Source: a virus
Reading direction: 5' to 3' (one strand)
IMG/VR virus record: IMGVR_UViG_3300024496_000013
Span: 62,001-126,000 of that record
Length of the DNA stretch: 64,000 bases
Shown here: positions 767-64,000 of the stretch, piece by piece
Layout of the letters: every line of letters starts with the position of its first letter
Position numbering within the stretch: the stretch's first letter is position 1
Program-made: the position numbers and the translations under genes
Notes under the pieces: generated by a model
The model's input: only the letters and a program-made list of their open reading frames with translations
The model's database searches: none
Told to the model about the DNA's origin: nothing

Positions 767-774
767 CTTAAATA
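767..774 (+). promoter_or_regulatory. T4-type late promoter (CTTAAATA)
   Basis: The octamer CTTAAATA matches the T4 late promoter TATAAATA at positions 3-8. It ends exactly 5 nt before the ATG at 780, and no Shine-Dalgarno lies between, so the transcript should start at or next to the start codon. Confidence 0.65.
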
Positions 775-779
775 TTGAT

Positions 780-1334
780 ATGGAACAAATTACTACCTGG
801 AAAACTCCGATAGCTGTACAAGAGATAGTCGTTGACGACGGAATATCTTGGGATCTATCTGCTTTTAATAATCTCGACAAACTAGATTTTAAACAGATTA
901 AAACACACGAACCGTTACAGGGCATTTCTAATACTACGTTTAATAGAGATGGCATGACTATAATGGAAACAAACAAATTGGTTTTTACTGGTTTTAATTT
1001 TTCTGTCACAGGTAATATACTAGGAATAGAATTAGAAATAAAAGGTCAGCGTTATTCTAGAGTTACTGATCAGATCGTACAGTTACACCTAAATGAACGC
1101 ATAGGTCAAAACATGAAGCAGTTATCAGATATAAATGAAAATTATTTTTCCTATGGTGGCCCTACTGATCTTTGGCAGGATCAAAATCATCTTAGCAATC
1201 TTACAGCAGCTAAAATTAATGATCCATTATTTGGAATCATGCTACAATTTAGAAGCCATCCGCATTTTCCTCATAGAGACACAGCTTATGTCGACCAACT
1301 GAGAATGCGTGTTTACTATGACGACGGCGCTTGA
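780..1334 (+). CDS. Putative virion protein, beta-sandwich type
   Basis: A 184-aa protein with no recognised enzymatic motif. The sequence alternates short beta-like segments. The second half has a pattern (YSYGGPTDLW-like, then NDPLFGIMLQF, then AYVDQLRMRVYY at the C-terminus) that recurs in beta-sandwich domains of phage surface proteins. It lies directly after the capsid gene and its last 17 bases overlap the next gene, suggesting translational coupling. ATG 780 has no ribosome binding site, but a late promoter octamer ends 5 nt upstream, so the start is supported by the leaderless pattern. A head decoration or adhesion role is inference. Confidence 0.75.
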   Translation: MEQITTWKTPIAVQEIVVDDGISWDLSAFNNLDKLDFKQIKTHEPLQGISNTTFNRDGMTIMETNKLVFTGFNFSVTGNILGIELEIKGQRYSRVTDQIVQLHLNERIGQNMKQLSDINENYFSYGGPTDLWQDQNHLSNLTAAKINDPLFGIMLQFRSHPHFPHRDTAYVDQLRMRVYYDDGA

Positions 1335-1593
1335 TCAACCAAGAGATTTTAAAGAAATAAGAGATCGTATAAACGACTGGCGCAGACGCTTTCCTATGTT
1401 TAACCATGATGTTAAACGGATAGAACGAATAGTAGAAAATCATATACAAGAATACAGCACAGCGTTAGTCTATTATAGACAGACCAAGCAGAAAAAATAT
1501 CTAGAACAAGCACAAAATCACATAGATGAGATAGACAGAGTGATTAATACTGTGGAAAAAGTACAGTTGATAGCATTGTTAGCCCGTAGATAA
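1318..1593 (+). CDS. Small conserved-type hypothetical protein, helical
   Basis: A 91-aa, highly charged protein predicted almost all alpha-helical (many K, R, E and Q, with a heptad-like pattern from about residue 10 to the end). I chose ATG 1318, which overlaps the upstream gene by 17 bases; a GTG at 1309 in the same frame would add three residues. The stop codon TAA at 1591 lies inside a late promoter motif. No function is recognised. A coiled-coil structural or chaperone role would be a guess. Confidence 0.65.
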   Translation: MTTALDQPRDFKEIRDRINDWRRRFPMFNHDVKRIERIVENHIQEYSTALVYYRQTKQKKYLEQAQNHIDEIDRVINTVEKVQLIALLARR

Positions 1594-1596
1594 ATA
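1589..1596 (+). promoter_or_regulatory. T4-type late promoter (GATAAATA)
   Basis: GATAAATA, one mismatch from the T4 consensus, overlaps the stop codon of the preceding gene. The next ATG is 67 nt downstream behind a clear ribosome binding site (AAGGAGAA), so this transcript has an ordinary leader. Confidence 0.6.
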
Positions 1597-1663
1597 AAGT
1601 ATCTAAGTTTATTATGCGGCACCCACCGCGTAGACCTAGAACGTCAACATAAGGAGAAAACAA

Positions 1664-2059
1664 ATGGGACGTCCAGTAAAAAAGATTAATTTTGGTACAG
1701 CGGCAGGATCAGATTCAGGTATTTTGGTATCTGCTATGAAAACTAGCACAGCTCGTACTAGCTACATCGTAGCACAACGTGGTTCAAACAAATACGATGT
1801 ATACAATGCTACAGACGGTACATTCCGTGTAACACTAGCAGAAGGTACAAGTTTTGCTGCCGACACAGCAGGAACAGCAGTCATGGTAGGTTACAGAGAT
1901 CCGGGTAATGATGCTACAAGAGTTACTATAAAGAAACTAACAGCTCGCATCATGACAGGTTTTGATGGCACACGCTACAGATGGGCACTAGTAAATGATT
2001 CATCATCTGACTACATCCAATTGTATGTCAAGGCTAACGGTACAACCGACTACGTATAA
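1664..2059 (+). CDS. Small virion protein near capsid gene
   Basis: A 131-aa protein starting MGRPVKKINFGTAAG. It has a strong ribosome binding site (AAGGAGAAAAC) 6-12 nt before ATG and a late promoter upstream. It is rich in T, G, A and V with beta-strand periodicity. The type is familiar from T4-like marine phages next to structural genes, but I know no assigned function. Its C-terminal stretch (YRWALVNDSSSDYIQLYVK) resembles a small beta-sandwich edge. A likely decoration or fibre-associated protein, by context. Confidence 0.75.
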   Translation: MGRPVKKINFGTAAGSDSGILVSAMKTSTARTSYIVAQRGSNKYDVYNATDGTFRVTLAEGTSFAADTAGTAVMVGYRDPGNDATRVTIKKLTARIMTGFDGTRYRWALVNDSSSDYIQLYVKANGTTDYV

Positions 2060-2072
2060 TTAGGAATCAATA

Positions 2073-4853: not shown

Positions 4854-4861
4854 GGTAAATA
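4854..4861 (+). promoter_or_regulatory. T4-type late promoter (GGTAAATA)
   Basis: GGTAAATA lies 16 nt before the ATG of the 1751-aa fibre gene, with AAAAGGA in the leader as ribosome binding site. Confidence 0.55.
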
Positions 4862-4877
4862 GTTAAAAGGATTAACT

Positions 4878-7800
4878 ATGTCTGACCTAGGTAGAATCTC
4901 CGGATCGATGCTCAAAGAAAACCTCTTGCGAGGTGGCGAGAATCTGGTCTTTCAAAATTCCCTAAGCGATAGTCTACTCTATATAGATGTAGAAACTAAC
5001 AGGATCGGCATCAATACAGATGCTCCTACTAGAGATCTAACTGTACTCACAGCTATCAAGACTTCGGATCTCATAATAGACAATAATCTAAATCTTTCTG
5101 GATTTAATTTCGATGGTGCTAACAGCATATTATCCAGTGTTAATGGTCCTATCTATATTTCTCCAGCGTCTAATCAAACGATAGTACCTCAATTAAGGAC
5201 CGATAATTTACGTTTTTCTAACAATACTATCAGTTCTTTAAACAGCAATGATAACATAGAATTAAAACCACACGGTATTGGAGAAACTATATTCGATTCC
5301 GATGTAATGGTAGATGGAAATCTACATAGTACCGGAGATATATTAATCGACGGACAGATATTTTTTGGTAATCAGACTACAGATACTGTTAGCATAACTG
5401 CTGAAGTAAACACAGACTTGATACCAGATAGCACCGATTATTTTAATCTAGGATCTAGCAGCAAAAAATGGTTAGATTTACACACACATCTAGTTAATGG
5501 TCAGCTGCTATCAACTGGATCAGTTTCATTTCCTAGTCTGTATGATATAGGACTCGATGTAGGCAAGCAATGGTTCGTGGCTACAAATGGTGATGATACG
5601 AATGTAGGATTTCATCAACATGGTCCATTTGCTACAATAGCTAAAGCCTTGAGCGTAGCAACATCCGGCGATACAGTTTACATATACCCAGGAACCTATA
5701 CAGAAATATTTCCATTGACAGTTCCACAAGGAGTTACTGTACGAGGCGCAGGTATAAGAGCAGTTACTGTCAAACCAACTGTAAGTACTAACACCCAGGA
5801 CTGTTTCTTGCTCAACGGAGAAACTACAATAGACGATCTGTCAGTGGTAGATTTTTATTATAATTCAGTTACAGACACAGGCTATGCCTTTAGATTTGCT
5901 CCAGGTTTTACAGTAACCTCAAGAAGTCCTTACGTACAAAATGTATCTGTTATAACAGAACCAGGAACAGGTACTGAAATTCCAGCATCAGTAGTACATG
6001 GCACAGGCCCAATTTCTACATCTTCATATTCTACTTTTGGATTTACTATTAGAGCATCCGATTATGGAGATATTGGCGGTTATATAACAGCCTATGCTCC
6101 TCTGACAGCAGTGATACAATCTGGTTATATAGATCCTCCAGGATACTACACAGTAACATCAATAGAAGTAGATCCTACTAATACAGATAATTGGTTTATA
6201 CATACTGCGGAAGAATTTAATCCTTCTCAACCTGGACTTTCATTAACTTTGTACAGTGTAGGAGCTTCTTTCATCGTTTCAAATGCTTTATTTGCTGAAG
6301 CTGGTTACTATTATCTAGATTATAATAAATCTGATTTGCCTGTAGATTTTGGCACAACTGTTGGAACTAATTGGATTTATACTGTTGACGTTAATTACTA
6401 TGGCGGAACTAGCTATATCATTGACAGTATTTCTGATCAAGGAACAAGGTGGAGGATAAACTTTACACAGACTATAGCAACTCCTTCTCTTGGCCAAGTA
6501 CTTTTTGTGTCCCCTGTTGCTCCAGACGGCACACCAGTAATACCACTACCGGCAGGTAAAGGAGCACTAGTTGATGGTAGTGTAGCTAATCCCGACAGCA
6601 AAGAAGCAAGTATGCTATTTCATAGCTGTACATTTATCACCACTGAAGTAGATGCGTTGACTATGACTAATGGTGTTCGTGTGGAATGGCTCAATAGCTT
6701 TACATATTTTGCCAACAAAGGGCTTTATGCTATAAATGGCACACTAGGATTTGCCAACCAAGGAGTAAAATTTGGTGCTGAAGTACGAAGCATAGGTTCA
6801 GCCAATGTCTACGGTACCTATGGTGCTTATGCCGATGGTTCGGATACATTGATGTATTTGATTAATCATAATTTTGCGTATATCGGAGCAGGCACAGATA
6901 CATCCAACGACCCTACAGCAGTCATACAGACTAATGAAGCTAGCAAACACAATGGTGGAGAAATTTACTATCAAAGTCTAGATCAACGAGGAGATTTTAG
7001 AGTTGGTGATGTATTCACAGTCAACCAAGAAACTGGTTTTGTCACACTAAACGGCATAGGACAAAATGCTAACGGTATCACTAGGATCACTTTAAGCAAT
7101 AATTCTGGTCAAGACACTATATTAGATCCACAGTTCATCCAAACAGGCGGAATAAAAATCAGTGGAAATACTATCTATGGCCTAGATGCTGAAGTTAATA
7201 TAGATCCTGCTAGCAATCAACTCAATCTCGAAAATGTTTCTATACCACAGAATCTTTCAGTGACTGGAAATTTTGTCATAGATGGCCAGTTAACTTTAGG
7301 CAATCAAGTGGTCGATACTATCAGTTTTGTAGCCGATGTTGACAGTGATATTTTACCTAATTCAACTTCTACATATAATCTTGGTAGTGAAACTTTACGT
7401 TGGACATCTCTAAAAAATATCAGATCAGATTTGCCTAACATTAAAATTTATGATAACAATATACAGACTGTAGATACAAACAGTGATTTAGAATTACGAG
7501 CAAATGCTAGCGGGTCTGTGGTATTTGTAAAAAATACTGAAATATCAAATACATTAACTGTTTCTCAAACTTCTAGTTTTGCTAACACTTTTATCACAGG
7601 ATCATTTGCTAAAAACGGCACCTCTCTGATAACTGGTGATATCAATCAAACTGGAGATATAAACATCTCGGGAGATTTCATAGTAAACAACAACTACTAT
7701 GCTTTCAACGACATCTATCTCAATCTAAATCAAGTTAGCACTGTTTCTTCCAATAGTGATCTAGAATTAGTAGCTGCGGGCACCGGTGTTATTTCTATAC

Positions 7801-10153: not shown

Positions 10154-10161
10154 AATAAATA
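10154..10161 (+). promoter_or_regulatory. T4-type late promoter (AATAAATA)
   Basis: AATAAATA, one base off the T4 consensus, starts a predicted leader of about 95 nt before the ATG at 10262. Confidence 0.6.
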
Positions 10162-10170
10162 CTTGTGATT

Positions 10171-10193
10171 ACAAGAGAGGACCAGTCTCTTGT
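10171..10193 (+). promoter_or_regulatory. Hairpin in long leader of the 1877-aa fibre gene
   Basis: Perfect 8-bp stem ACAAGAGA / TCTCTTGT with a GGACCAG loop, close to the predicted 5' end of the mRNA. A second imperfect stem (TAACCGTG / CACGGGGTTA, about 10229-10254) lies just before the ribosome binding site AAGGAGAG. No T run follows, so it is not a terminator; possible mRNA stabiliser or translation control. Confidence 0.5.
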
Positions 10194-10261
10194 ATGGCTA
10201 AACTGTGGTAAACCCGCAATGTAAGGTGGTTAACCGTGAAACACGGGGTTAAGGAGAGCGA

Positions 10262-13200
10262 ATGAGCCAGCTTGGTCGTATATCTGGGCCGCTCTTGAAG
10301 GCGAATCTACTTCGTAATGGAGTTGATCTGGCTTTCGAGACTGACCTACTCTATCTAGATGTTAAAAATCTCCGCGTCGGAATAAAGACAGCCAACCCCA
10401 CACACGATCTTACAGTCAACGGCACAACAAGAACCACAAACTTAGAATTAACCAACAGCCTAACAGTAGGCAATCTCACGTTTGGTAATAACACTATCAG
10501 TAGCACACAGGGCGAGATACAGCTTAATCCCGCAGGTGGTGGTACCGTATTTTCTGGCAAGATCACAGCAGACGAAATAGATATTTTTAACAATACTATT
10601 TCTACTAACATTTCAAACGCAAATCTAGAATTCCGTCCACACGGTACTGGTAGCGTAGATATCTATAGCAATGCTACAGTTAATGGAGATCTACACGTCA
10701 CCGGTAATGTCACAGCAGACGGCGACATACAGATCGGTAATCAAACTACTGATACTGTGTCATTCACTGCTGAAATAGTCAGCGACATCATTCCTAAATT
10801 TAATGAAACTTATAGTCTTGGATCAGATCCAGGAGCTGGAGGCAATCGTTGGAATGATGTTTGGGCTAAAAATCTATACGCAGACGCAATTTTTACTTCT
10901 AACCTAGTAGTTAATGGTATCAATCTTACCCTAAGACAGGGAAAGATTTATTATGTAGCTACCAACGGCAACGACACATACTCAGGTACACACGAAAACG
11001 ATCCGTATGCTACAGTGAAAAAAGCATTAACTATGGCAGTCAGTGGAGATACTGTGTACATATACCCAGGAACTTACACAGAAATATTTCCTCTAACTGT
11101 GCCTGTTGGTGTTAGCGTAAAAGGTATAGGACTAAGATCTGTATTCATCCAACCTACTAGCGGTACTAGAAACAAAGACGCTTTTCAATTAAATGGTGAA
11201 ACTACCATAGAAGACATCACTGTTGGCAATTTTGAATACGATTCTGTTAATAATACCGGACATGGATTTGTATTCGCTCCGGGATTTAAAGTCACTACTA
11301 GAAGTCCATATATCAAAAATGTCACTGTGTTGACATTTGGTAGTACTGTAAGATTAGGCACTAATCCTCTAGATGATCCGCGTGGATATCTAGCCGGTGA
11401 TGCAGGACGTGGAGCATTCGCAGATGGTAGTCTAGCAGATCCTACTAGTATAAAAGCTAGTATGCTGTTTCATTCTGTAACATTTTTAACTCCTGGTGCT
11501 GATGGATTAAAATGTACTAATGGTGTTAGGATAGAATGGCTCAATTGTTTTACATATTTTGCTTCTAAAGGTATAAATCTTTACAGTGGCAGCACAGGTT
11601 TTGCCAATGACGGTAAGACTAGGATAGAATTTTCCACAACATCTGGCACATTTAATGTCGGTGATACAGTCACATACTATGATACAGACGGAACCACAGT
11701 ATTAGCCAGCGGATTGATAGAAAGTAAATCAGGTAATGTTTATACTATAGATGGAAAATCTAATAATTGGGAAACTATTACTGACCGCGGCGGCAAACAG
11801 GTTGTAGTGTCAGGCGATGCCAAGTTAACAACATCTTTGAAAAAATTTGGCACAGCCAGTTTATCATTAGATGGAACAACAGACTATATCAACATCGCTA
11901 GCCAACCAGATTTTGCGTTTGGTACAGGCGATTTTACCATGGAAGGTTGGTTCTATCCTACCGCTTCTGGCACCTATAGAACATTGTTTGATCTAAGAAC
12001 TACTACACCCGGCGATGGTGGCGGGATCATTATAGGTATAAACAACCTTGATCAATTGTATTTTTATTACAATTTTGGTTTTAGAATAGGTGCTGCTGGT
12101 TCTGTACCATTGAATCAATGGAGTCATATAGCTTTATCTAGAGTGTCTGGAGTAACTAGAGCGTTCGTCAACGGAACTCAGATCGGTGTAAATTATACAG
12201 ATAGCAATAACTATGCTCAGAGAGCAGTTCGTATCGGAGCAGATCCTGCTGGACAATATGCTTTTACAGGTTATGTAGATGATGTAAGAATTTCAAAAGG
12301 CGTCGGAAGATATACATCAAATTTTTCAGTACCGACTAATGCGTTTGTTGGAGATCTTTCAACAGTATTGCTATTACATTTTAATGGACCAAACGCATCA
12401 ACTATCATAACAGATGACGGCTACACTGGCCAGGATATTAGATCATCTAGCGGTGGTGTTTCTACAAGATTAGATAATGTAGATTATACAGACTTTGGTG
12501 CTGAGCTTCGTAGCATCGGTTCTGCTTGTGTTTATGGACAGTATGGAATTTACGGTGACGGTGTTGGTGTTATTGGATATCTGATCGGTCAGAATCTTGC
12601 TTACATAGGTTTAGGCAGGAGTACAGATAACGATCCGTTGTCAGTGATACAGGCTAACGAAGTAGTAAAACTAAACGGAGCAAAAATATTCTTTAACTCT
12701 GTTGATGCTCGTGGAGATTTTAGAGTAGGAGATTATTTCTACATCAATCAGCAGACTGGTGAAGTTAGTTTTAGTAATTCTAATGTCAGTGTGACAGGCA
12801 ACATATTATTAGATGACGGTCTAGGTAATGTTACCTATATCGATCCTACTAAAATAGACACGGGCAATATCGAAATCGCTGGAAATACTATCAGCAGTGT
12901 TGCCGGCGACGTAAACATTAACGCATTTTCTAATCAGATCAATCTTTTAAGCAATGTAACAGTATCTGGCAATCTAGATGTCACTGGCAATGTTACCGTA
13001 GGCGGTAATATTACCATCGGTGATCAAACCACAGACACTGTTAATATTACCGCTAAAGTAACCAGTGACATCATACCAACTATCGATTCTAGATTTAATC
13101 TCGGATCCAACAGCTATCGATGGAATAATCTTTATTCTACTGAATTAGATACAGGCGATATAAGAATATTTGACAATGTGATTACCACTGTTACCAGCAA

Positions 13201-16241: not shown

Positions 16242-16607
16242 ATGGCCGGACCATTTAATTTAGGTGAAATTAATCAAGAAGAATTGTTAGGTGTAGGTGT
16301 ACCTAGATATCTGTATGCTATGAGAAGAACAGATGACGGTGAATTATACGTGAATAGGTTTGATCAGTTGAGCAACACAGATTCTATCACTATAAATCAA
16401 AACGGAACCACTGACGGCAATTATGACCAATTCGAAACTGGTGTAGATTTCTTCGAAGGAAGAGACGTTAATCACGAGCTAGTCTATGAAAATTTAAATT
16501 ATGAACAATACCGATGGGATGGACGATCACTTTGGTATTACATCAATGATGATGGTGAGTTAGTAGTTAGGATAAACGGAAATTACAACTATCCTAGTGG
16601 TATATAA
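16242..16607 (+). CDS. Small conserved-type virion protein
   Basis: A 121-aa protein starting MAGPFNLGEINQEELLGVGV and containing 'PRYLYAMRRTDDGELYVNRFDQLS'. It is acidic and rich in aromatic residues (Y, F, W), ending YNYPSGI. Preceded by AAGGAAAAATATC. I recognise it as a type seen beside fibre genes in T4-like marine phages but know no function. Its stop codon sits inside a perfect late promoter. Confidence 0.7.
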   Translation: MAGPFNLGEINQEELLGVGVPRYLYAMRRTDDGELYVNRFDQLSNTDSITINQNGTTDGNYDQFETGVDFFEGRDVNHELVYENLNYEQYRWDGRSLWYYINDDGELVVRINGNYNYPSGI

Positions 16608-16610: not shown

Positions 16611-16636
16611 TTTTCAACGCAAAATTAGGATGAAAA

Positions 16637-49539: not shown

Positions 49540-49544
49540 ACTAT

Positions 49545-49552
49545 TATGTATC
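49545..49552 (-). promoter_or_regulatory. Late promoter candidate on minus strand (GATACATA)
   Basis: GATACATA on the minus strand ends exactly 5 nt before ATG 49539; overlaps the gp15 stop. Two mismatches from TATAAATA. Confidence 0.38.
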
Positions 49553-52327: not shown

Positions 52328-52334
52328 AGTATTA

Positions 52335-52342
52335 TATTTACC
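52335..52342 (-). promoter_or_regulatory. Late promoter for gp14-gp15 (minus strand, GGTAAATA)
   Basis: GGTAAATA on the minus strand ends 7 nt before ATG 52327. It is back-to-back with the plus-strand gp13 promoter, only 5 bp apart. Confidence 0.6.
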
Positions 52343-52347: not shown

Positions 52348-52355
52348 GATAAATA
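52348..52355 (+). promoter_or_regulatory. Late promoter for gp13 (GATAAATA)
   Basis: GATAAATA ends exactly 5 nt before ATG 52361; no ribosome binding site in the 5-nt gap. Confidence 0.68.
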
Positions 52356-52360
52356 ACAGT

Positions 52361-53125
52361 ATGAGCCAACTAGATGAAGAAAAACAGAAGGTCTATGACT
52401 ATTGTAAGACCATGCTGGGCGACGGCATGATCGACGTCGAACTAGATCCTATACACTATCAAACAGCCCTTGATAGGTCATTAGCTATTTTTAGGCAAAG
52501 ATCGGACAATTCTGTAGAAGAATCTTTCGCATATCTAACGCTGGAAATAGACAAAAACGAGTACATACTGCCTAAAGAAATACAGGTAGTACGTGAAATC
52601 TATAGGCGTTCGATAGGTTCTAGATCCGGCGGCGGCACGGGAGGCACAGTATTTGAACCATTCAATCTAGCCTATACAAATACCTATCTATTAAGCTCGA
52701 CAAACATGGGCGGTCTTCTAACTTATGAACTGTTTGCTCAATATCAAGAACGTGTGGGTAAGATGTTCGGTAGCTTCATACAGTTTACATGGCATCCACA
52801 AACGCACAAACTGACTATACACCAAAGACCGCGTTCTATGGAACAAGTCATGTTATGGGTTTACAATACTCGCCCAGATCATGCTATCTTGACAGATACG
52901 TATGCTAACATATGGATCAAAGATTACACACTAGCTAACTGTAAAATGATGCTAGGACAAGCACGTGAAAAATTCCAAACTATCGCAGGCCCAGGCGGCG
53001 GAACCAGCCTAAACGGGCAAGCATTAAAACAAGAAGCACAAGCAGATATCGAACGACTGACAGCAGAACTGGTCAACTTTGTACCAGGCACTGCTATGGC
53101 CGGATATACATTCGTTATTGGTTAA
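52361..53125 (+). CDS. 13: Neck protein gp13
   Basis: A 254-aa protein, 'VYDYCKTMLGDGMIDVELD' then 'HYQTALDRSLAIFRQRSDNS' near the N-terminus and 'QFTWHPQTHKLTIHQRP' near 150. The C-terminal 'MMLGQAREKFQTIAGPGGGTSLNGQALKQEA' (two blocks) is typical of T4-family gp13, which with gp14 completes the head-to-tail connector. T4 gp13 is 309 aa. It is divergent from gp14, so both neck proteins are expressed from one 60-bp region. It ends 7 bases before a sigma70-like promoter. Confidence 0.87.
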   Translation: MSQLDEEKQKVYDYCKTMLGDGMIDVELDPIHYQTALDRSLAIFRQRSDNSVEESFAYLTLEIDKNEYILPKEIQVVREIYRRSIGSRSGGGTGGTVFEPFNLAYTNTYLLSSTNMGGLLTYELFAQYQERVGKMFGSFIQFTWHPQTHKLTIHQRPRSMEQVMLWVYNTRPDHAILTDTYANIWIKDYTLANCKMMLGQAREKFQTIAGPGGGTSLNGQALKQEAQADIERLTAELVNFVPGTAMAGYTFVIG

Positions 53126-53863: not shown

Positions 53864-54113
53864 GATTGCTAGGGCGGCAATTATCGAGATTTTCGTCTAT
53901 ATGATAGACCGCAAAAACTTCTTTGTGAGGAGATTTAAATCCGCATCGATCACACTGAAGTTTCAAACGGTACCCTGCTCTATACCATCTAGGGATACCG
54001 TGATTTTTTCCATGCTTTAGGCAAATTTCACATAGTGACCTATAATAGGTCTTGCCATTTTTATGGTAGTTGACTGCTGCCGGCCTAAATCCGCAGCTAC
54101 AAAGCGGTCTCAT
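53778..54113 (-). CDS. HNH-type zinc-binding protein
   Basis: A 111-aa protein. N-terminal Cys motifs 'CSCGFRPAAVNYHKNGKTYY' and 'LCEICLKHG'; C-terminal HNH-like domain 'CDRCGFKSPHKEVFAVYHID', then 'NLDNCRPSNLKSVCANCQ' with paired CxxC and the H...N...N spacing. It ends GDLTPDF. Free-standing HNH proteins of this form are common in T4-like marine phages and may be homing endonucleases or packaging-related nucleases. Convergent 86-bp overlap with gene 1. A GGTAAATA octamer ends exactly 5 nt before the ATG, so it is probably late and leaderless. Confidence 0.82.
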   Translation of the reverse strand: MRPLCSCGFRPAAVNYHKNGKTYYRSLCEICLKHGKNHGIPRWYRAGYRLKLQCDRCGFKSPHKEVFAVYHIDENLDNCRPSNLKSVCANCQRVLHKENVRWRQGDLTPDF

Positions 54114-54118
54114 AAAAA

Positions 54119-54126
54119 TATTTACC
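54119..54126 (-). promoter_or_regulatory. Late promoter for HNH gene (minus strand, GGTAAATA)
   Basis: GGTAAATA on the minus strand ends exactly 5 nt (TTTTT) before ATG 54113; no ribosome binding site. Confidence 0.6.
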
Positions 54127-54177: not shown

Positions 54178-54185
54178 GCTAAATA
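54178..54185 (+). promoter_or_regulatory. Late promoter for tail sheath (GCTAAATA)
   Basis: GCTAAATA 34 nt before ATG 54220; the leader ends with a strong CAGGAGATAACGGA ribosome binding region. Confidence 0.62.
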
Positions 54186-54219
54186 TTTTAACAAGATTTA
54201 ACCTTCAGGAGATAACGGA

Positions 54220-57200
54220 ATGGCCCTTCAATCACCAGGCGTACAGGTTACGGTAGTTAACGAAAGTTACTACACAACAAACACACAGGGGACAGTACCT
54301 CTGTTTGTCGTAGCTACTGCGCAAAACAAGAACAACTCTAGCGGCACAGGTATTGCTGCTGGCACACTAAAAGCAAACGCAGAATCAGTTTATACAGTAG
54401 CTAGTCAAAGAGAGCTATCAGACTATTTTGGAACACCAAAATTCAAGACAGCCATCGACGGCAGTCCGATACACGGTGCTGAACAAAACGAATATGGCTT
54501 ACAAGCAGCATACAGCTTCTTGGGCGTTTCAAATCCTGCTTATATTGTAAGAGCGGATCTAAACCTAAATGAACTAACAGCACAAGATAAAGCTCCTGGT
54601 TCTGAACCAGCAAATGGTCAATGGTGGCTAGATACTGCTAGCACACAATGGGGTATCTTTGAATGGGATTCAACACCCGTTAGATTGAATGGCCAAAAAT
54701 TCGTACACAAAGTACCTACCGTAATCAACGATACTGACGTTGATATGCTAGACGACGTTGGCGGAGTTATGTATCCAAAAGCCAGCGTGGGCAAGTCAGG
54801 AGATTACGCTGTAGTTTCCGCTTCTGATGTGATTAGATATTTTTACAAAGGCACAGATTATACAACTTCAGGTAATCCTATTTCATGGCAGCTAATCGGT
54901 ACCAAACAATGGAGAAAGTTTTGGCCAACATTTGTTTCAGCTGGATATAACCCTCCAACAAGTGGTGATATCAGCATAACAATCAATGGTAGATTAGTAA
55001 CAGTACCTAACAACAGCACATTAAATGACGTAGTCACTTTGATCAATTCGTTAGTTATCACTGGAGTCAAAGCAGCCAATATTGGTGGAAATCTAAACTT
55101 GTTCGTCACTGACAAGACTGACGATGTAGGCGACTCTACAGACAGTATTTTGATCCTTATGGAGGACAGCACTGTTGGTTCAGTTGCTGCTTTGTTTGAT
55201 GTACCAGCAGGCGAATACTTTGGTCCAGAATTGACCATAGCTCCACATACTTCAGTTCCACAGTGGAAGGCCGGAGACTCATATCCAAGACCAAGCGGTT
55301 CTGTATGGGTTAAATCTACAGATCCAAATCTAGGTGCTAGATACAGGATCAAGAAATATAATTCTTCTACTAAAGCATGGGCAGAAGTGCGTACAGGCCT
55401 AAATGCCACTCCTCAAGCTGCTATCTATGCGTTAGATAGAACAGGTGGCGGAGTTAATATTCCTGTAGATCAAGTATTCGTACAATATAACTATTCAGAA
55501 GATACTGGATATGATAATACTCCACAAACTACCAGCTTCAAGATTTTCGTAAGAAAGAATGCTGGTGTAAATGCTACAAGTATCACTTCAGATGCTGTAA
55601 CTAACCAGCTATCAGCAGGTTCAAAGACTATCTTTATCCGTGAAAGTCTAAAAGGCAGTCCTACACTCGGTCCGGTAACACAGATTAACTTTACCGCAGC
55701 TGGTAATTCAGCAGATGCTAATGCGATCGCTGTAGCTATCAACTCTTCTTCACTGACCAATATCAGAGCATCTGTTGCATCAGGTAGATTGACTATCGTA
55801 CACACATTAGGTGGCGAATTTAGAATCACTGATACTTCAGGAGCATTGGCTGCGATTGGTTTTACAACATTCAACTATGAAGATGGTTCAGGTACACCAA
55901 ATCTATATGCTGTGCCAGCAGGTTCTGTAGTAGACGAAAATGATGTTGAAGTTCTCGAAACTTTCGTAGCATCTAGCTGGTTGCCACTGGCTGGATCATT
56001 GACTGGTTACATTTCTGCTAAGAATGCTCCAGAAGCCGAAGCTAGCGACGGTCAGCTTTGGTATTCGAATGTAGTTAATGAAGTGGATATCATGATTCAT
56101 AACGGAACTACTTGGGTTGGATACCTAGATAGTACTTCACCATACTACAAAGGTTCTTCAAGTCAACAAACAGACCCAAGTGGTCCTATCGTAAGTGCTA
56201 CACGCCCATTGCTACAAAGCGACGGTACAGTATTGGTTACTGGAGACATTTGGATTGATACCAGCGATTTGGAAAATTATCCAGTGATCTATAGATTTAA
56301 CAATGATTTATCAGATACTCCTGTAGCAAACAGATGGGTATTGATAGACAACACAGACCATACATCAGAAAATGGTGTATTGTTTGCTGATGCTAGAGCA
56401 GGAACTACAGGTGGTGATGCTACTACAGCACCATCCGGCACTATCAAAGAATTGTTAGTCAGCAACTTCGTAGATTTCGATGCCCCAGATCCAGCACTAT
56501 ATCCACGTGGTATGATGCTATGGAATACACGTCGTAGCGGTTTCAATGTAAAAGTTTATAGACATACTTACGTAGATACCACAGCAGACAACATAAGATT
56601 CAATGACGAATCGATGGCTCTATACCATAGATCGCGCTGGGTTACAGAATCAGCTGATAAGTTTGGTCGTCATGCTCAGCGTCATGTTGTAGTAACGGCT
56701 CTCAAGAAAGTTATAGCTACTAGCCAGCAGCTAAGGGAAACTGAAGTGAGACAGTTTAACTTGCTAGCTTGCCCAGGCTATCCAGAAGTACTACAAAACT
56801 TGATCGATCTAAACGCAGATCGTGGCGATACAGCGTTTATCGTTGGTGATTCACCATTCAGATTGCCAGCAGATTCGACTTCATTAACCAGTTGGGGTAC
56901 TAACGCAAAAGGCGCAGCAGATAACGATGAAAATTCATTAGTATCTTATGATGCTTATACGGCTGTATTTTATCCAAGCGGATTGACCACAGATAACGTG
57001 GGCAATTCAGTAGTAGTACCTGCTAGCCACATGATGCTCAAGACTATGGCTGTCAGCGATCAAGTAAGTTACCCATGGTTTGCTCCAGCAGGTATACGTC
57101 GCGGCGCTATTACTAACGCAACATCGGTTGGTTATATCGATAAGACAACCGGATCTTTCAAGACTGTAGCTCTAACAGAAGGACAAAGAGATACTCTTTA

Positions 57201-57649: not shown

Positions 57650-57657
57650 GATAAATA
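57650..57657 (+). promoter_or_regulatory. Late promoter for tail tube (GATAAATA)
   Basis: GATAAATA 22 nt before ATG 57680, with AACGGAGC as ribosome binding site. Confidence 0.65.
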
Positions 57658-57679
57658 ATTATAACGGAGCAAAAATAAT

Positions 57680-58321
57680 ATGGCGATTTCAACACTATCA
57701 AAACTAACAGTGCCGTTAGCTTCAGACCAAAGTTCAGCAACTCAAGGTCTGTTGATGCCAAAGCTCAAGTATCGCTTTAGAGTGGTACTAAGTGGATTTG
57801 GTGCTAATGGTTCTGTAGCTACAGAATTAACTAAGCAGGTCGTAGACGTAACTCGTCCTAAGGTCAGCTTTGAAGAAATGGAAATTCCTATCTACAACAG
57901 CAGAATTTATCTGGCTGGTAGACATCAATGGGAAGCGATCACTTTAAATATCAGAGATGATGCTAGTGGTGCTGTACAGAGACTGTGCGGTGAGCAGGTA
58001 CAGAAGCAGTTTGACTTCTTTGAACAGGCATCTGCTGCTTCAGGTCAGGACTATAAATTTACTACCAGAATCGAAATCTTAGATGGTGGTAACGGCGCAC
58101 AAACACCAAATGTTCTTGAAACATTTGAAGTATATGGCTGTTTTGTACAAAATATCGATTACGGTGAACTTGCGTATGGTACAAACGAAGCAGCTCAGAT
58201 ACAGTTGAGCATCAGATATGATAACGCTATCCAGTACAGAGGCGGATCAGTAGATGGCATCGGACGTAACATCGGTGCTAGAACTATCGGTTCACTAACT
58301 ACAGGCGGCGGTAATATCTAA
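57680..58321 (+). CDS. 19: Tail tube protein gp19
   Basis: A 213-aa protein directly after the sheath gene, as in T4. 'MPKLKYRFRVVLSGFG' at the start, 'VTRPKVSFEEMEIPIYNSRI' near 72, 'YLAGRHQWEAITLNIRDD' near 91, and 'ETFEVYGCFVQNIDYGEL' near 147 with a C-terminal 'AAQIQLSIRYDNA'. These are the features of the T4-family inner tube protein (163 aa in T4). It forms stacked hexamers inside the sheath. Followed by a strong terminator. Confidence 0.92.
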   Translation: MAISTLSKLTVPLASDQSSATQGLLMPKLKYRFRVVLSGFGANGSVATELTKQVVDVTRPKVSFEEMEIPIYNSRIYLAGRHQWEAITLNIRDDASGAVQRLCGEQVQKQFDFFEQASAASGQDYKFTTRIEILDGGNGAQTPNVLETFEVYGCFVQNIDYGELAYGTNEAAQIQLSIRYDNAIQYRGGSVDGIGRNIGARTIGSLTTGGGNI

Positions 58322-58378: not shown

Positions 58379-58386
58379 AATAAATA
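58379..58386 (+). promoter_or_regulatory. Late promoter for 58392 gene (AATAAATA)
   Basis: AATAAATA ends exactly 5 nt before ATG 58392; no ribosome binding site. Confidence 0.65.
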
Positions 58387-58391
58387 ATGTT

Positions 58392-59510
58392 ATGGCAAAC
58401 TATTTCACACGATTCTTAGTCGGTCTAGGACAAGGACTAACAAACCCCAAAGGCAACATGGGGGACTTCCAACATGCATCTAGAGTATTTGTAGATAATA
58501 CGTTCCGTCTAGCACCAAGGACTAAATTTACATTTCATGTATACCTTGATATAAATCCTCTAGCTCTACAAGCTTCTAATTGGAAAGCACAGCATCATAA
58601 AGAAGCAGGAATGTTAGTAAAAACAGCCGACCTTCCTAAATTTACATTACAAACAGAAGTCAAAAATCAGTATAATAAAAAGAAAATAGTTTACAAAGAC
58701 ATCACATACGATCCAGTTAATATCACGTTCCATGACGATAATCTAGGTCTTATAAATTCTTTATGGGCACAGTATATGGCCTATATCAGTCCCGATCGAC
58801 TAAATCCTAGAGCAGCGTATAACGCAAAATCTATTAATGTATATAGATCTACAGGACAAGGATCAGTAACAGCCGACGAAGCCAGGGATGGCGCAACTAC
58901 GACAGGCAGTACTGGGGGCGGATTTGATTTTTATAGATACGGTCTAGACAAGGACGGATACACAGAACCGTTCTTTAGATCGATTACCATTTATACATTA
59001 GCAAGAAAACGATTCAACAGTTATACGTTGGTTAATCCTATGATAACCTCGTGGACTACTGGTCAGATGGATTATAACCAAAGCAATGGTATGAACGAAA
59101 TGACCATGAGCTTACAGTATGAAACTGTTTTTTATGGTTATGGAACTGTCACCAGGGGAGTAGAACCAAATGGCTTTGCTGACCTACATTATGACACCGC
59201 ACCTAGCCCGTTGACTATAGGTGGTGGTGGCACCAGCACTGTTTTTGGACCAAATGGTGTCCTTGGAGGATTATATGGTTCAGGACTCGCCGGAGCGCAA
59301 CTGATATTCAGGAATGATTTTGGAAATATCAACGGAACACCAAACTTCTTCGGTGCAGCCATTAATGCTATTAATACCTATAGAAGTCTTTCTAATATTA
59401 ACCTCAATACTATCAAGCAAGAAGCTGTAAACATACTAACAGTGCCTAACAATTATGTCAATAATTTAGGACCATTGCCTGGGGTAGTTATTAATTCAGG
59501 ACCAAGATAA
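58392..59510 (+). CDS. Second tail-tube-like protein (possible tube initiator)
   Basis: A 372-aa protein. The first 230 residues follow the tube pattern: 'LAPRTKFTFHVYLDIN', 'VKTADLPKFTLQTEVKNQYN', 'ITYDPVNITFHDDNLG' and 'GQMDYNQSNGMNEMTMSLQYE'. The remaining 140 residues, rich in G, N and I, are an extra C-terminal region. In T4, gp54 and gp48 share the tube fold and start tube growth on the baseplate; this protein could play that role, but the match is by pattern only. Leaderless-type start with late promoter octamer at 5 nt. Two bases separate its stop from the next ATG. Confidence 0.72.
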   Translation: MANYFTRFLVGLGQGLTNPKGNMGDFQHASRVFVDNTFRLAPRTKFTFHVYLDINPLALQASNWKAQHHKEAGMLVKTADLPKFTLQTEVKNQYNKKKIVYKDITYDPVNITFHDDNLGLINSLWAQYMAYISPDRLNPRAAYNAKSINVYRSTGQGSVTADEARDGATTTGSTGGGFDFYRYGLDKDGYTEPFFRSITIYTLARKRFNSYTLVNPMITSWTTGQMDYNQSNGMNEMTMSLQYETVFYGYGTVTRGVEPNGFADLHYDTAPSPLTIGGGGTSTVFGPNGVLGGLYGSGLAGAQLIFRNDFGNINGTPNFFGAAINAINTYRSLSNINLNTIKQEAVNILTVPNNYVNNLGPLPGVVINSGPR

Positions 59511-59893: not shown

Positions 59894-60333
59894 TGCCTAG
59901 ATTTGCCCAAGGTCACTTTACTATGAAAAACCCCGATAAGTATATCGGGAAAAAAACTCCACTAGCACGTAGCAGTTGGGAGTTTGTTTTTATGAAAATG
60001 CTAGATGAGCATCCAGGTGTACAAAATTGGGCTAGCGAAAGTATACAGATACCCTATAGGGATCCATTAACTGGTAGATATACGATTTATGTTCCTGATT
60101 TTTTTATAGTTTATGTAGATAAAGATAAAAAGAAACATGCTGAGCTTGTAGAAATAAAACCAGCCAGCCAAACACTAAGAGAAAAAGTGGGCAAGAGTGT
60201 GTTTAATCAAGCACAGTTTATCAAAAATCAAGCCAAATGGGAAGCAGCTAATGCTTGGTGTAGACAGCAAGGGATACGTTTCCGTGTAGTTAATGAGGGC
60301 GATATTTTCCATCAGGGCTCCAAAAAACGATAA
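59893..60333 (+). CDS. 4: Head completion protein gp4 (TnsA-like nuclease fold)
   Basis: A 146-aa protein, 'GHFTMKNPDKYIGKKTPLAR' then 'SSWEFVFMKMLDEHPGVQNW', 'IPYRDPLTGRYTIYVPDFFI' and 'ELVEIKPASQTL'. The E ... PDF ... E-I-K arrangement is the restriction-endonuclease-like core of T4 gp4 (gp50), about 150 aa, needed to complete DNA-filled heads and thought to trim or protect the genome end. The catalytic D (PDF) and E-x-K (EIK) residues are present. Coupled to the preceding gene (TGATG). Confidence 0.85.
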   Translation: MPRFAQGHFTMKNPDKYIGKKTPLARSSWEFVFMKMLDEHPGVQNWASESIQIPYRDPLTGRYTIYVPDFFIVYVDKDKKKHAELVEIKPASQTLREKVGKSVFNQAQFIKNQAKWEAANAWCRQQGIRFRVVNEGDIFHQGSKKR

Positions 60334-60336
60334 GTA
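60329..60336 (+). promoter_or_regulatory. Late promoter candidate for gp16 (GATAAGTA)
   Basis: GATAAGTA overlaps the gp4 stop and ends exactly 5 nt before ATG 60342; no ribosome binding site. Two mismatches from TATAAATA. Confidence 0.45.
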
Positions 60337-60341
60337 ATTGT

Positions 60342-60815
60342 ATGACTAAGAAATTAGAAGAATTGTTCAATTTAGAAGAGTCTTTGCCAGCAAACGTAGA
60401 AACACCAGAAGCTAGCAAGGATAATATCACTTCGTTAGAACGCAGCTATAAAGAAGTAGAGCAGATAGCATCTACACTGCCTGCTATTGATGATTTAGAA
60501 AGCCTAGACGAAAGCGAATTAGATTCGTTAGCTAAAAAAGCAGAAACTGCCTATGACGATCTAATGGATTTGGGCATGAACGTAGAAGTACGCTACAGCG
60601 GACGTATATTTGAAGTAGCAGGTACTATGCTTAAGAATGCTATAGATGCCAAGGCTGTTAAGATCAATAACAAACTAAAAGCTGTAGATCTCAAGCTGAA
60701 AAAGCTGAAAATTGACAGAGATTCCGGTGATGAAGAACCGGGCATGATGAATGGGCAAGGATTTGTTATCACTGATCGTAATGCCTTGCTCAAAAAACTA
60801 AGCGGAAAAGAATAA
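60342..60815 (+). CDS. 16: Terminase small subunit gp16
   Basis: A 157-aa acidic protein. The central helical region 'KKAETAYDDLMDLGMNVEVR' plus 'YSGRIFEVAGTMLKNAIDAK' and 'KINNKLKAVDLKLKKLKID' corresponds to the coiled-coil oligomerisation core of T4 gp16 (164 aa). The C-terminal 'NGQGFVITDRNALLKKLSGK' matches the gp16 tail region. It regulates the gp17 motor during DNA packaging. It lies three genes upstream of gp17. No ribosome binding site; a GATAAGTA octamer ends 5 nt before the start. Confidence 0.8.
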   Translation: MTKKLEELFNLEESLPANVETPEASKDNITSLERSYKEVEQIASTLPAIDDLESLDESELDSLAKKAETAYDDLMDLGMNVEVRYSGRIFEVAGTMLKNAIDAKAVKINNKLKAVDLKLKKLKIDRDSGDEEPGMMNGQGFVITDRNALLKKLSGKE

Positions 60816-60818
60816 ATA
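60811..60818 (+). promoter_or_regulatory. Late promoter (AATAAATA) that decides the 60824 start
   Basis: AATAAATA overlaps the gp16 stop and ends exactly 5 nt before ATG 60824. An alternative ATG at 60818 would overlap the promoter itself, so 60824 is preferred. Confidence 0.62.
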
Positions 60819-60823
60819 TGAGT

Positions 60824-61399
60824 ATGAAATCACTAAAAGACTATCTTACAGAAAGCCAAAAAACTTACAGTTTCCGTATCAAAGTAGCTGGTAAGTATAA
60901 TGAAGGTTTCGTTGAAGCTGCTAAACAGGCTATGAGCAAGTATGGTTGCGCAAAGTTTGAAAAAGTCAGCGATATTCCTATTGCTAACAAGCATTTGGAT
61001 TTTCCACAGCTAGAAAATATAGATGTGTCTGTATACGAAACTGATTGTACATATCCTGTAACACCTATCGAAATTTCTGCGTTACTACACGAAGTAACTA
61101 AAATCCCAGAAGTGTATTTCAAAGTTAGAAACCTAGGTGATACTACAGACATCTATATTCCTGTAGATGCGCAAAAGAGTGGTAAAGCTCTATTAGATGA
61201 TCCAGAATACAAAGAACATCCCAAGTTTGCTTCAAAAGATTACTTCGGTGATGATTTCAACAGATCGTTCTTGAAAGACCTAGCCAAGCAAAGCAAGGCA
61301 CAGAAAAAAGAAATAGGCCAGAACGAAGAATACAAATTACCAAAAACTAAAGCAGATAAGGCAGGTGTATCTAGTCCTATCTCAAGGAGTCCTAGATGA
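60824..61399 (+). CDS. Conserved-type hypothetical protein between terminase genes
   Basis: A 191-aa protein starting MKSLKDYLTESQKTYSFRIK. It is alpha/beta in the first 120 residues ('KTYSFRIKVAGKYNEGF', 'VSVYETDCTYPVTPIEISAL') and charged and disordered at the C-terminus ('KLPKTKADKAGVSSP'). I chose ATG 60824 over 60818 because the late promoter octamer ends exactly 5 nt before it. Its stop overlaps the next start (ATGA). The gene type is familiar from T4-like marine phages near gp16/gp17, but I know no function. Confidence 0.72.
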   Translation: MKSLKDYLTESQKTYSFRIKVAGKYNEGFVEAAKQAMSKYGCAKFEKVSDIPIANKHLDFPQLENIDVSVYETDCTYPVTPIEISALLHEVTKIPEVYFKVRNLGDTTDIYIPVDAQKSGKALLDDPEYKEHPKFASKDYFGDDFNRSFLKDLAKQSKAQKKEIGQNEEYKLPKTKADKAGVSSPISRSPR

Positions 61400-61957: not shown

Positions 61958-61958
61958 C

Positions 61959-61966
61959 ATTAAATA
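61959..61966 (+). promoter_or_regulatory. Late promoter for gp17 (ATTAAATA)
   Basis: ATTAAATA ends exactly 5 nt before ATG 61972; no ribosome binding site. Confidence 0.62.
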
Positions 61967-61971
61967 TAGTC

Positions 61972-63561
61972 ATGAGTAAAAGTTTAGATGGCGTATTAAT
62001 CAAGAAGGCGCATAAGCCGGAAAGATATACTCTCGAAGAAGTCAAACACCTAGAAGCATGTTTAGATCCGATAGACGGACCATTATACTTCTGTAAGAAC
62101 TTCTTAAAGATTCAACATCCGACTAAAGGTTCTATTCCTTTCGAACCTTACGAGTATCAAGAAGAATTAATACGTGCTTATCATAATCATACCTACACGA
62201 TAGCGATGTTGCCGCGTCAGATGGGTAAAACTACCTGTGCTAGCGGTTATCTACTTTGGTATACAATGTTTGTACCTGAAGCACAGGTACTAATTGCTGC
62301 CCACAAATACACAGGTGCGCAAGATATCATGAATCGTTATCGCTATGGTTACGAAAATCTTCCTGATTTTATACGTGCTGGTGTATATTCATATAACAGA
62401 AATACTATCGAATTCGACAATGGCGCACGTATACAAGCAACTACAACGACAGAAAACACAGGTCGTGGTAAATCTCTTTCGCTAATATACTGCGACGAGT
62501 TTGCGTTCGTACAACCTCCAGAAAAAGCCAAAGAGTTCTGGACTGCTTTATCACCAACATTGTCAACGGGTGGTAAGTGTATTATCACATCAACACCAAA
62601 TTCAGACGAAGATCAGTTTGCTATGATCTGGACTGAAGCTAACAAAAAATTCGACGAGTATGGTAACGAAAGAGAAGTAGGCACTAACGGATTCTACCCA
62701 TACTTTGCTCCATGGAGCGAACATCCGGATCGTGATGAAGAATGGGCTAAGGTAGAACGTGCCAAGATTGGTGAAGAGCGTTTCCGTCGTGAATTTGACT
62801 GCGAGTTCTTGATCTTTGATGAAACACTGATCAACGCAGTAAAATTAACTGAGCTTAAAGGTGTAGACCCTATAATGACTATGGGTCAAACACGTTGGTA
62901 CAAAGATATCGATCCTCGTTGTACCTATCTCGTAGCACTAGACCCTAGTTTGGGTACAGGCGGCGACTATGGTGCTATCCAAGTATTTGAAATGCCTACT
63001 ATGGAGCAGGTCGCAGAATGGCGTCATAATTTAACTCCGATACAGGCACAAGTTAAGCATATGCGAGAAATCATAAAATATATCGCAGAACGCGGTGAAG
63101 AAAAAGGTGGAGCATCTCCACAGATCTATTACAGTGTTGAAAACAATACACTAGGTGAAGCAGCTCTAGTAGTGATCAATGATTTAGGTGAAGAAAATTT
63201 CCGAGGATTATTTTTAAGTGAACCCATCCGTAAAGGTCATGTGCGTAAGTTCCGTAAAGGGTTTAACACTACGCATCGCACTAAAATCTCTGCTTGTGCT
63301 ATATTCAAAAATCTGATAGAAACACACAGGATGAAAATATTCTCTAAACCGTTAATATCTGAGCTAAAAACGTTCGTAGCACACGGTGTAGGGTTTGGAG
63401 CTAAAACGGGTGAGCACGACGACTTAGTTTCAGCTATGCTATTAATCATACGCATGGCGGGCATACTCAGTGATTGGGATCCGCAGATCTATGAAAAAAT
63501 GACGGAACAGCTCACTGAAGATCAATTGCCTATGCCTATCTTTGTAAGTACAGGATTCTGA
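61972..63561 (+). CDS. 17: Terminase large subunit gp17 (packaging ATPase and nuclease)
   Basis: A 529-aa protein. ATPase domain: Walker A 'MLPRQMGKTTCASGYLLWY' near 78-96, Walker B 'LIYCDEFAF' near 172 and coupling motif 'IITSTPN' near 204. Nuclease domain (RNase H-like): 'LVALDPSLGTGGDYGAI' near 322, acidic residues near 398 ('YYSVENNTLGEAA'), and 'GEHDDLVSAMLLII' near 480. T4 gp17 is 610 aa. It powers DNA translocation into the prohead and cuts the concatemer. All key residues are present. Leaderless-type start. Confidence 0.95.
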   Translation: MSKSLDGVLIKKAHKPERYTLEEVKHLEACLDPIDGPLYFCKNFLKIQHPTKGSIPFEPYEYQEELIRAYHNHTYTIAMLPRQMGKTTCASGYLLWYTMFVPEAQVLIAAHKYTGAQDIMNRYRYGYENLPDFIRAGVYSYNRNTIEFDNGARIQATTTTENTGRGKSLSLIYCDEFAFVQPPEKAKEFWTALSPTLSTGGKCIITSTPNSDEDQFAMIWTEANKKFDEYGNEREVGTNGFYPYFAPWSEHPDRDEEWAKVERAKIGEERFRREFDCEFLIFDETLINAVKLTELKGVDPIMTMGQTRWYKDIDPRCTYLVALDPSLGTGGDYGAIQVFEMPTMEQVAEWRHNLTPIQAQVKHMREIIKYIAERGEEKGGASPQIYYSVENNTLGEAALVVINDLGEENFRGLFLSEPIRKGHVRKFRKGFNTTHRTKISACAIFKNLIETHRMKIFSKPLISELKTFVAHGVGFGAKTGEHDDLVSAMLLIIRMAGILSDWDPQIYEKMTEQLTEDQLPMPIFVSTGF

Positions 63562-63567
63562 TAAATA
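63560..63567 (+). promoter_or_regulatory. Late promoter for 63573 gene (GATAAATA)
   Basis: GATAAATA overlaps the TGA stop of gp17 and ends exactly 5 nt before ATG 63573. Confidence 0.65.
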
Positions 63568-63572
63568 TTAAC

Positions 63573-64000
63573 ATGGAAGATAATGTCAAAAGCGTAGCCA
63601 CTGATTTATTCTACAAAGTTAGAAGCCGTTTTTCTGGCTTAAAACTAGGGAAAGAAACCGGTGAAGTAACAATAAATCCCGAAGAAGCTGTATTTTTCGA
63701 CTTTGATTATATGGAGGGCGAAAACCCATTAGGACACGTGAGTGTGAGCCTAGCAGAGCCCGGAAGCATGAAAGTCTATTATAGTACAGGTATCACAGAA
63801 TCAATGAACCCTTTACAGAAAAACAATTGGTATGATTTTCTTAGAGGTTTAAGAGAATTTGCTAAACGCAGATTGATGACTTTTGACACCAGAGATATCA
63901 CAAAAGATTATCTAGACAAGAGAGACTTCGCTTTCTTGTCTCAGTACTCAAACAATTCACAGGTCGGAGAATCGGTTATGAAAGAAGGAATGTATGGTAG
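63573..64000 (+). CDS. Conserved-type phage protein, N-terminal part (runs off window)
   Basis: At least 142 aa, open to the end of the window, starting MEDNVKSVATDLFYKVRSRF. Recognisable blocks are 'EAVFFDFDYMEGENPLGHVS', 'NWYDFLRGLREFAKRRLMTF' and 'DTRDITKDYLDKRDF'. I have seen this pattern in large T4-like phages next to the terminase or portal genes, where the full protein is several hundred residues, but I know no established function. The start is supported by a late promoter octamer 5 nt upstream. Confidence 0.78.
   Translation, partial: MEDNVKSVATDLFYKVRSRFSGLKLGKETGEVTINPEEAVFFDFDYMEGENPLGHVSVSLAEPGSMKVYYSTGITESMNPLQKNNWYDFLRGLREFAKRRLMTFDTRDITKDYLDKRDFAFLSQYSNNSQVGESVMKEGMYG

Follow-up and report, generated by a model that had tools for sequence, protein, structure and literature searches.

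Late promoters of T4 are already known, as are leaderless genes in bacteria and individual leaderless mRNAs in phages. The T4 late box is 8 bp long and lies about one helical turn upstream of the transcription start, with its first bases at -13/-12 (PMC2988020), and T4-like late promoters have been sought in the methylophage Melnitz and in cyanophages (PMC9004378; PMC3037559). In pelagimyophages, the prediction of middle and late promoters was unsuccessful, according to a survey (PMC7029224). In bacteria, a promoter element about 10 bp before the start codon predicts a message without 5'-untranslated region (PMC3160421). The same source names a case of leaderless mRNA in phage lambda, and a paper on phage AR9 remarks that phage transcripts are "often leaderless" (PMC5312081). 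Here, we analyze the late promoters in a 64,000-nucleotide (nt) stretch of viral DNA, hereafter the window, which comprises bases 62001-126000 of a 150,707-base IMG/VR virus record (IMGVR_UViG_3300024496_000013). In this window, a TAAATA-type octamer ends exactly 5 nt before the ATG of ten genes, and we propose that such genes are transcribed into leaderless late mRNAs.

These promoters share with T4 late promoters the core octamer (TATAAATA-like) before head, tail and packaging genes, an encoded homolog of gp55 and, in the leadered promoters of both, a preference for pyrimidine-A at positions 5-6 after the octamer; unlike the phages studied here, T4 has no clear class of promoters at 5 nt. 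With the leaderless bacterial genes led by a TA element they share the predictive spacing, but the element is a phage late octamer, terminators frequently abut it, and a further class with a predicted 3-nt ACU leader exists. The leaderless phage mRNAs mentioned in the sources on lambda and AR9 likewise start at or near the start codon, but a gp55-type programme split into leaderless and Shine-Dalgarno (SD)-led genes is not described in the accessible portions of those two papers. More generally, the literature searched, in which sources were in part seen as excerpts and which did not extend to preprints and most subscription papers, yielded no account of a T4-type phage with leaderless late mRNAs.

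The window most likely represents part of the genome of a jumbo phage related to T4. PHROG matches in the window comprise a major head protein fragment, a gp13-like adaptor, a sheath, two tube proteins, a head closure protein and a terminase. The record also encodes a gp55 homolog (L006:4094-4954; phrog_12791, E 1.5e-77; phrog_234, E 3.1e-24), and phrog_234, the gp55 family, was matched in 18/18 records searched. Relatives of the terminase large subunit (TerL) were found in viral contigs at 83-88% identity, in records of up to 364 kb; this range sets aside L010, a 100% match to the TerL of the window that may be the same phage. The nearest named phages are PA5oct and Phosso (TerL identity 52-55%). 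No tRNA genes that might hint at the host were present in six flanking stretches scanned, the window itself lying outside that scan.

We consider it probable (roughly 0.85), judging from sequence patterns, that a T4-type gp55 late programme is split here into leaderless and SD-led genes. The phage sigma factor gp55 would read an 8-bp TATA-like octamer, and at a large share of the late promoters the spacing would make RNA polymerase initiate on the A of the ATG, yielding an mRNA that begins with 5'-AUG and would be translated by leaderless initiation, while other late genes would retain a leader of 15-100 nt with an SD sequence. Since the T4 box is numbered from -13, a gap of 5 nt between octamer and start codon puts +1 on the A of ATG. 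A start site 5-6 nt past the octamer would leave a leader of 0 nt at gaps 4-5 and of 3 nt (ACU-AUG) at gaps 7-8, and upstream terminators would halt read-through RNAs, on which ribosomes would find no good binding site.

A preliminary description of this DNA had suggested a genome-wide test for an excess at 5 nt, and this excess is indeed found. Of the 57 distinct TAAATA sites in the record, 10 are followed at gap 5 by an ATG open reading frame of at least 60 codons, against 0.19 expected (P = 8e-15); two sites each have gaps 4 and 7, and none has a gap of 0-3, 6 or 8-12. The expectation is taken from the 14 other arrangements of the letters of TAAATA, whose pooled gap-5 rate is 0.0034 in this record and 0.003-0.006 across the sets. 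Besides the record itself, the sets compared were two related genomes, G001 (364 kb) and G002 (353 kb), and the loci of 80 TerL relatives; a wider set consists of 80 loci retrieved with the TerL of PA5oct, and a pelagiphage set of 80 TerL relatives of HTVC008M. Duplicate contexts were counted once (36 nt around the site; 55 nt in some counts, 48 nt for SD energies), and the minimum reading frame was 60, 80 or 100 codons depending on the count, and 45 for the listing of promoter gaps in the record. Gap 5 is found in 14/145 TAAATA sites of G001 (P 3e-13), 18/229 of G002 (P 1e-14), 190/564 in the 80 TerL loci and 77/923 in the wider set. Chance was rejected as an explanation: the gap-5 rate in the 80 relatives is 0.337 vs. 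a pooled 0.0044 for the 14 permuted hexamers, the highest of which, AATATA, reaches 27/739. In the window, TAAATA is depleted overall (25 occurrences vs. 83 expected from dinucleotide shuffles).

The base preceding the start codon provides a second line of evidence. Bacterial RNA polymerase prefers to initiate at a purine (+1) that is preceded by a pyrimidine (-1). A pyrimidine before the ATG is therefore expected at gap 5, because the RNA should start on the A of ATG. At gap 5, C or T precedes the ATG in 323/328 contexts (0.98 when weighted by family, with 71 families that are approximate because proteins were grouped by shared 4-mers), against 0.48 (family-weighted 0.49) over 1174 starts without octamer and 0.56 where the octamer is 14-45 nt away. 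The signature also holds in single genomes: 10/10 in the record, 14/14 in G001 and 18/18 in G002. The idea that the pyrimidine is intrinsic to the promoter was discarded, as leadered promoters of these phages have a pyrimidine at position 5 in a fraction of only 0.48. Pyrimidine-A does peak at positions 5-6 after the octamer in the leadered promoters of T4 (0.61), Atu_ph07 (0.66) and the phages studied here (0.53), compared with 0.22-0.49 at other position pairs in the same sets.

At gaps 7-8, an A three positions before the ATG together with a preceding pyrimidine is found in 54/71 contexts (family-weighted 0.69; background 0.24), which mostly read T-ACT-ATG. Counted from the octamer, this A is at position 5 or 6, just as the A of ATG is at gaps 4-5. 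Judged by this pattern, gaps 7-8 form a second class with a predicted 3-nt leader, ACU-AUG. Gaps 9-13 comprise 22 contexts only. The structural gene gp14 (octamer GGTAAATA, 52325..52342, minus strand; ATG 52327; PHROG virion structural protein, phrog_11591), whose 7-nt gap reads TAATACT, belongs to this class and is predicted to carry the 3-nt leader. It had been presented as the lone case between the two promoter classes, which is correct within the window, but the record also contains gap 4 (19658-, 57930+) and another gap 7 (149781-). The proposed split into leaderless and leadered genes agrees with the gap-5 peak, the pyrimidine at -1, weak SD pairing, mostly AUG starts and the terminators, but was too simple, since gap 4 occurs as well and an ACT-ATG class exists at gaps 7-8. 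Between gp14 and gp13, two divergent octamers serve the ATGs 52327 and 52361, which are 34 bp apart, so that both promoters and both start codons fit into about 35 bp.

All ten gap-5 starts in the window, seven of them with a perfect TAAATA, are confirmed by the sequence. On the plus strand, the octamer CTTAAATA (767..782) precedes ATG 780 of a gene (780-1334) without PHROG match and is itself immediately preceded by a terminator-like hairpin and T-run. The same arrangement of hairpin and T-run is seen upstream of the second tail-tube-like gene (AATAAATA, 58379..58394, ATG 58392) and of the terminase large subunit gene (ATTAAATA, 61959..61974, ATG 61972). The octamer GATAAATA stands before the gp13/Ad2-like gene (52348..52363, ATG 52361) and before a gene for a virion structural protein, phrog_13484 (63560..63575, ATG 63573). 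Gene 60824 (AATAAATA, 60811..60826, ATG 60824) and the gene for the terminase small subunit-like (TerS-like) protein, which has a weak PHROG match (variant GATAAGTA with TAAGTA, 60329..60344, ATG 60342), have octamers whose TAA also terminates the preceding gene. The octamer of gene 60824 overlaps a further in-frame ATG, at 60818; a leaderless mRNA could use none but ATG 60824. An HldE-like gene follows another variant (GATAATTA with TAATTA, 46380..46395, ATG 46393). On the minus strand, GGTAAATA (54111..54126, ATG 54113) precedes an HNH-like gene, and the variant GATACATA with TACATA (49537..49552, ATG 49539) a gene without PHROG match.

Translation signals differ accordingly between the short-gap and the leadered genes. 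Pairing with the anti-SD sequence averages -1.24 kcal/mol at gaps 4-5 vs. -0.79 for shuffled sequence (n=248), and -4.73 vs. -2.76 kcal/mol at gaps 15-60 (n=176). The gap-5 genes had been described as lacking SD sequences, and this stands as far as mean pairing, which is near the shuffled level, is concerned; SD-like purines do occur just 5' of the octamer at 60824 and 54113. Leaderless mRNAs have a strong AUG preference in E. coli and Caulobacter (PMC9031893). Gap-5 starts are ATG in 184 cases vs. 2 GTG/TTG among the relatives and 31 vs. 2 in the pelagiphage set, and such start-codon counts rule out that GTG/TTG make up a large share of the class. Among TerL rows, SD-like pairing is present in 10/25 genes without a short-gap octamer vs. 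4/137 with one, and strong SD sequences are seen, for instance, in L058, L293, L295, L327 and L328 (-5.6 to -6.0). In comparisons of independent pairs on a TerL tree of 162 rows, 5.0 of 8 pairs for TerL, 5.2 of 10 for TerS and 3.0 of 5 for 63573 went the predicted way vs. 0.3, 0.1 and 0 the other way.

Moreover, a hairpin followed by a T-run abuts the octamer in 96/414 cases at gaps 4-5, in 14/481 leadered cases (gap 14-45) and in 2/71 at gaps 7-8. Such an abutting terminator would keep upstream RNA from acting as a leader.

The short gaps are conserved gene by gene in the 80 relatives (orthologs without alignable start were excluded here and from the SD-pairing counts). The gp13-like gene has TAAATA at gap 5 in 18/19 orthologs and at gap 4 in one, the HNH gene gap 5 in 38/39 (35 TAAATA, 3 TAAGTA), the second tube gene gap 5 in 53/56 and gap 4 in three, gene 60824 gap 5 in 64/68, TerL gap 5 in 58/79 and gap 4 in 16/79, and gene 63573 gap 5 in 77/79. 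The TerS-like gene, which had been placed in the gap-5 set, does have gap 5 in the window, but its orthologs carry TAAGTA at gap 4 in 58/65 cases and at gap 5 in 7/65. For 46393 and 49539, no ortholog was found among the 80 relatives, so both weak matches are without comparative support; ortholog gaps for gp14 are unreliable because the query started six codons too early. Of the leadered genes, the sheath gene follows its octamer at a distance of 31-36 nt in 40/40 orthologs; for the first tube gene, TAAATA lies 19-23 nt upstream in 18/56 orthologs, is absent within 110 nt in 38 and has a short gap in 0. In the wider set (54-65% TerL identity), the octamer lies exactly 5 nt before the ATG in 53/80 TerL genes (TAAATA 33, TAAGTA 20), while the flanks diverge widely around it; 8 of the remaining genes have gaps of 4 or 6-8, and 19 have none. 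That TerL, the gp13-like protein and the second tube-like protein are predicted to be leaderless, and the sheath, first tube and fiber-like proteins leadered, fits loosely with the earlier idea that the leaderless mode may lower or time expression of catalytic and minor proteins.

Beyond these relatives, the pelagimyophage HTVC008M resembles the phages studied here in its gap-5 peak (12/186 sites, P = 5e-11), in the pyrimidine at -1 (11/12) and in encoding the ribosomal protein bS21, but differs in a TerL that is only about 31% identical; among its 80 TerL relatives, gap 5 is found in 31/739 sites, 30 of them with a pyrimidine at -1. No comparable peak was detected in PA5oct (3/613), phiM12 (0/65), Cr30 (0/27), S-PM2 (1/171) or Atu_ph07 (2/296 sites; 396 of 490 kb tested), and Phosso has no site at gap 5 in the TerL region, the part to which the reading-frame filter was applied. 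For CBB, 121Q, KVP40 and the rest of Phosso, sites were listed without this filter. In T4 itself, 3/225 sites have gap 5, slightly more than the 0.68 expected (P 0.03), but just one of the three has a pyrimidine at -1, hence no clear class; the same holds for P-SSM2, with 3/199 sites (about 198 of 252 kb; P 0.003) and a pyrimidine in 1/3. A general occurrence of the gap-5 class in T4-like phages was consequently dismissed, given the lack of a clear peak in T4, PA5oct, phiM12, Cr30, S-PM2 and Atu_ph07. In Escherichia phage 121Q (KM507819.1), TAAATATAGTATAATG occurs eight times (one copy as TAAATATGATATAATG) at 121927-131286 on the minus strand, about 0.8-2.4 kb apart, which may reflect a gene family repeated together with its promoter.

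Several observations weigh against a split into leaderless and SD-led late genes. No transcript 5' ends were found for any phage with the gap-5 class. The start signature is not uniform: at gap 4, a pyrimidine occupies -1 in only 77/95 contexts, and gap 6 (31 contexts) fits neither a clean 0-nt nor a 3-nt leader. At positions 5-6, pyrimidine-A is only modestly preferred, and it peaks there in three of five leadered sets but not in the pelagiphage set (0.52 vs. 0.51 at positions 3-4) or in phiM12 (0.38 vs. 0.44 at positions 11-12). On the side of translation, gap-5 starts in the wider set include 7 GTG/TTG vs. 75 ATG, and 15/25 TerL genes without short-gap octamer are also without SD sequence. 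SD-like pairing within -16..-4 is kept in short-gap orthologs of 60824 (34/82), HNH (26/46) and TerS (23/103), so that these genes could be translated from a leadered read-through mRNA as well. In the independent-pair tests, each p is at or above 0.06 at the median.

Of the rival explanations, the one that comes closest to competing, although improbable, is the following: the octamer would be a true late promoter, but the ATG would be served mainly by read-through or processed upstream mRNA, and the short gap would reflect genome compaction. In its favor, the octamer's TAA doubles as the stop codon that ends an open frame of 60 codons or more in 105/414 cases at gaps 4-5 (22/481 leadered; 15/71 at gaps 7-8), an overlap that may indicate tight gene packing, and SD-like purines are kept in part of the 60824, HNH and TerS orthologs. 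Compaction, however, predicts neither one exact gap nor a pyrimidine at -1 in 323/328 contexts, nor does it predict directly upstream terminators in 96/414 cases vs. 14/481 leadered ones.

Less credible again is that the short-gap motif represents the -10 box of a host sigma factor, which would make the genes leaderless but independent of gp55. Bacterial leaderless genes do have TANNNT about 12 bp before the start (PMC3160421), but TAAATA and TAAGTA do not end in T, and the hexamer is identical to that at the leadered structural genes. This identity also counts against what we regard as the least plausible proposal, that TAAATA-N5-ATG is no promoter but a translation signal, i.e., a non-SD site rich in A/U at which ribosomes would bind longer mRNAs: while the fixed distance from the ATG and the replacement of the SD sequence would suit such a site, late genes that do have an SD sequence are preceded by this hexamer too, at 15-60 nt. 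Moreover, the hexamer resembles the T4 late promoter TATAAAT (PMC9004378; PMC3037559), gp55 is encoded, and a ribosome site explains neither the pyrimidine at -1 nor the preceding terminator.

If leaderless and SD-led genes indeed coexist, they might constitute two late translation channels: SD-led mRNAs would supply the abundant structural proteins, and mRNAs beginning with 5'-AUG or 5'-ACU-AUG, with leaders of 0 or 3 nt and few lengths between these, would supply packaging, neck and other proteins, in a balance tuned by altering the host ribosome, e.g., through phage bS21. We regard this as a rather doubtful extension. Genes for bS21 were found in 6/17 records searched (G001, G002, HTVC008M, PA5oct, Phosso and Atu_ph07), thus in both relatives of at least 350 kb that were searched, and were not found in 7/9 IMG/VR records, the present one included, which may be fragments. 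Against the two-channel idea, PA5oct, Phosso and Atu_ph07 carry bS21, yet PA5oct and Atu_ph07 are without the gap-5 class. IF3 is reported to disfavor leaderless mRNA under some conditions (PMC9031893), and IF3 genes were found in 3/18 records (Phosso, Atu_ph07 and 121Q). A link between the two would be supported by Atu_ph07, which encodes IF3 and, over the 396 of 490 kb tested, shows no peak at gap 5, but T4, PA5oct and the cyanophages have neither IF3 nor the gap-5 class.

If the proposed split is real, many environmental giant phages use a T4-type late programme to produce leaderless messages from an entire set of genes, a mode conserved gene by gene among them, and a leaderless late class is also present in a distant pelagiphage. 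It would translate into a testable rule, namely the octamer plus 4-5 nt plus ATG with a pyrimidine at -1, or the octamer plus NNNTACT or NNNNTACT plus ATG, and would thereby improve the annotation of start codons and promoters in these phages and supply pelagimyophages with candidate late promoters. A further question that arises is why terminase, neck and related genes avoid the SD route.

The leadered late genes of the window, all on the plus strand, have gaps of 15 to 100 nt as originally described, but the clear ribosome binding sites attributed to them look weak at 37701 (gap 20; 37675..37701) and 39279 (gap 19; 39254..39279). The tail sheath gene (ATG 54220; 54180..54220) has a gap of 34 and the SD sequence AGGAG, and the first tail tube gene (ATG 57680; 57652..57680) a gap of 22 and GGAG. 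Further leadered promoters precede the ATGs 4878 (gap 16, AGGA; 4856..4878), 10262 (gap 100, AGGAG; 10156..10262), 16637 (gap 26, AGGA; 16605..16637), 22764 (gap 26, GGAG; 22732..22764), 30810 (gap 20; 30784..30810) and 34132 (gap 15, GAGGA; 34111..34132). At ATG 1664, a leadered TAAATA with a gap of 67 (1591..1664) is followed by a leader that corresponds to the Rfam motif freshwater-2 (RF02980, 53.8 bits). This RNA, at 1595-1666 on the plus strand, extends from the end of the late octamer to the start of gene 1664 and hence serves a phage late gene as its 5' leader. Within the motif lies a 12-codon upstream open reading frame, MRHPPRRPRTST, the frame of which continues into the gene in G001. 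Finally, within the structural block, the regions 35817-37631 and 46393-48912 match the PHROG annotation "Nol-like carbamoyltransferase" as well as HldE-like, cysteine dioxygenase and nucleotide-sugar epimerase families.

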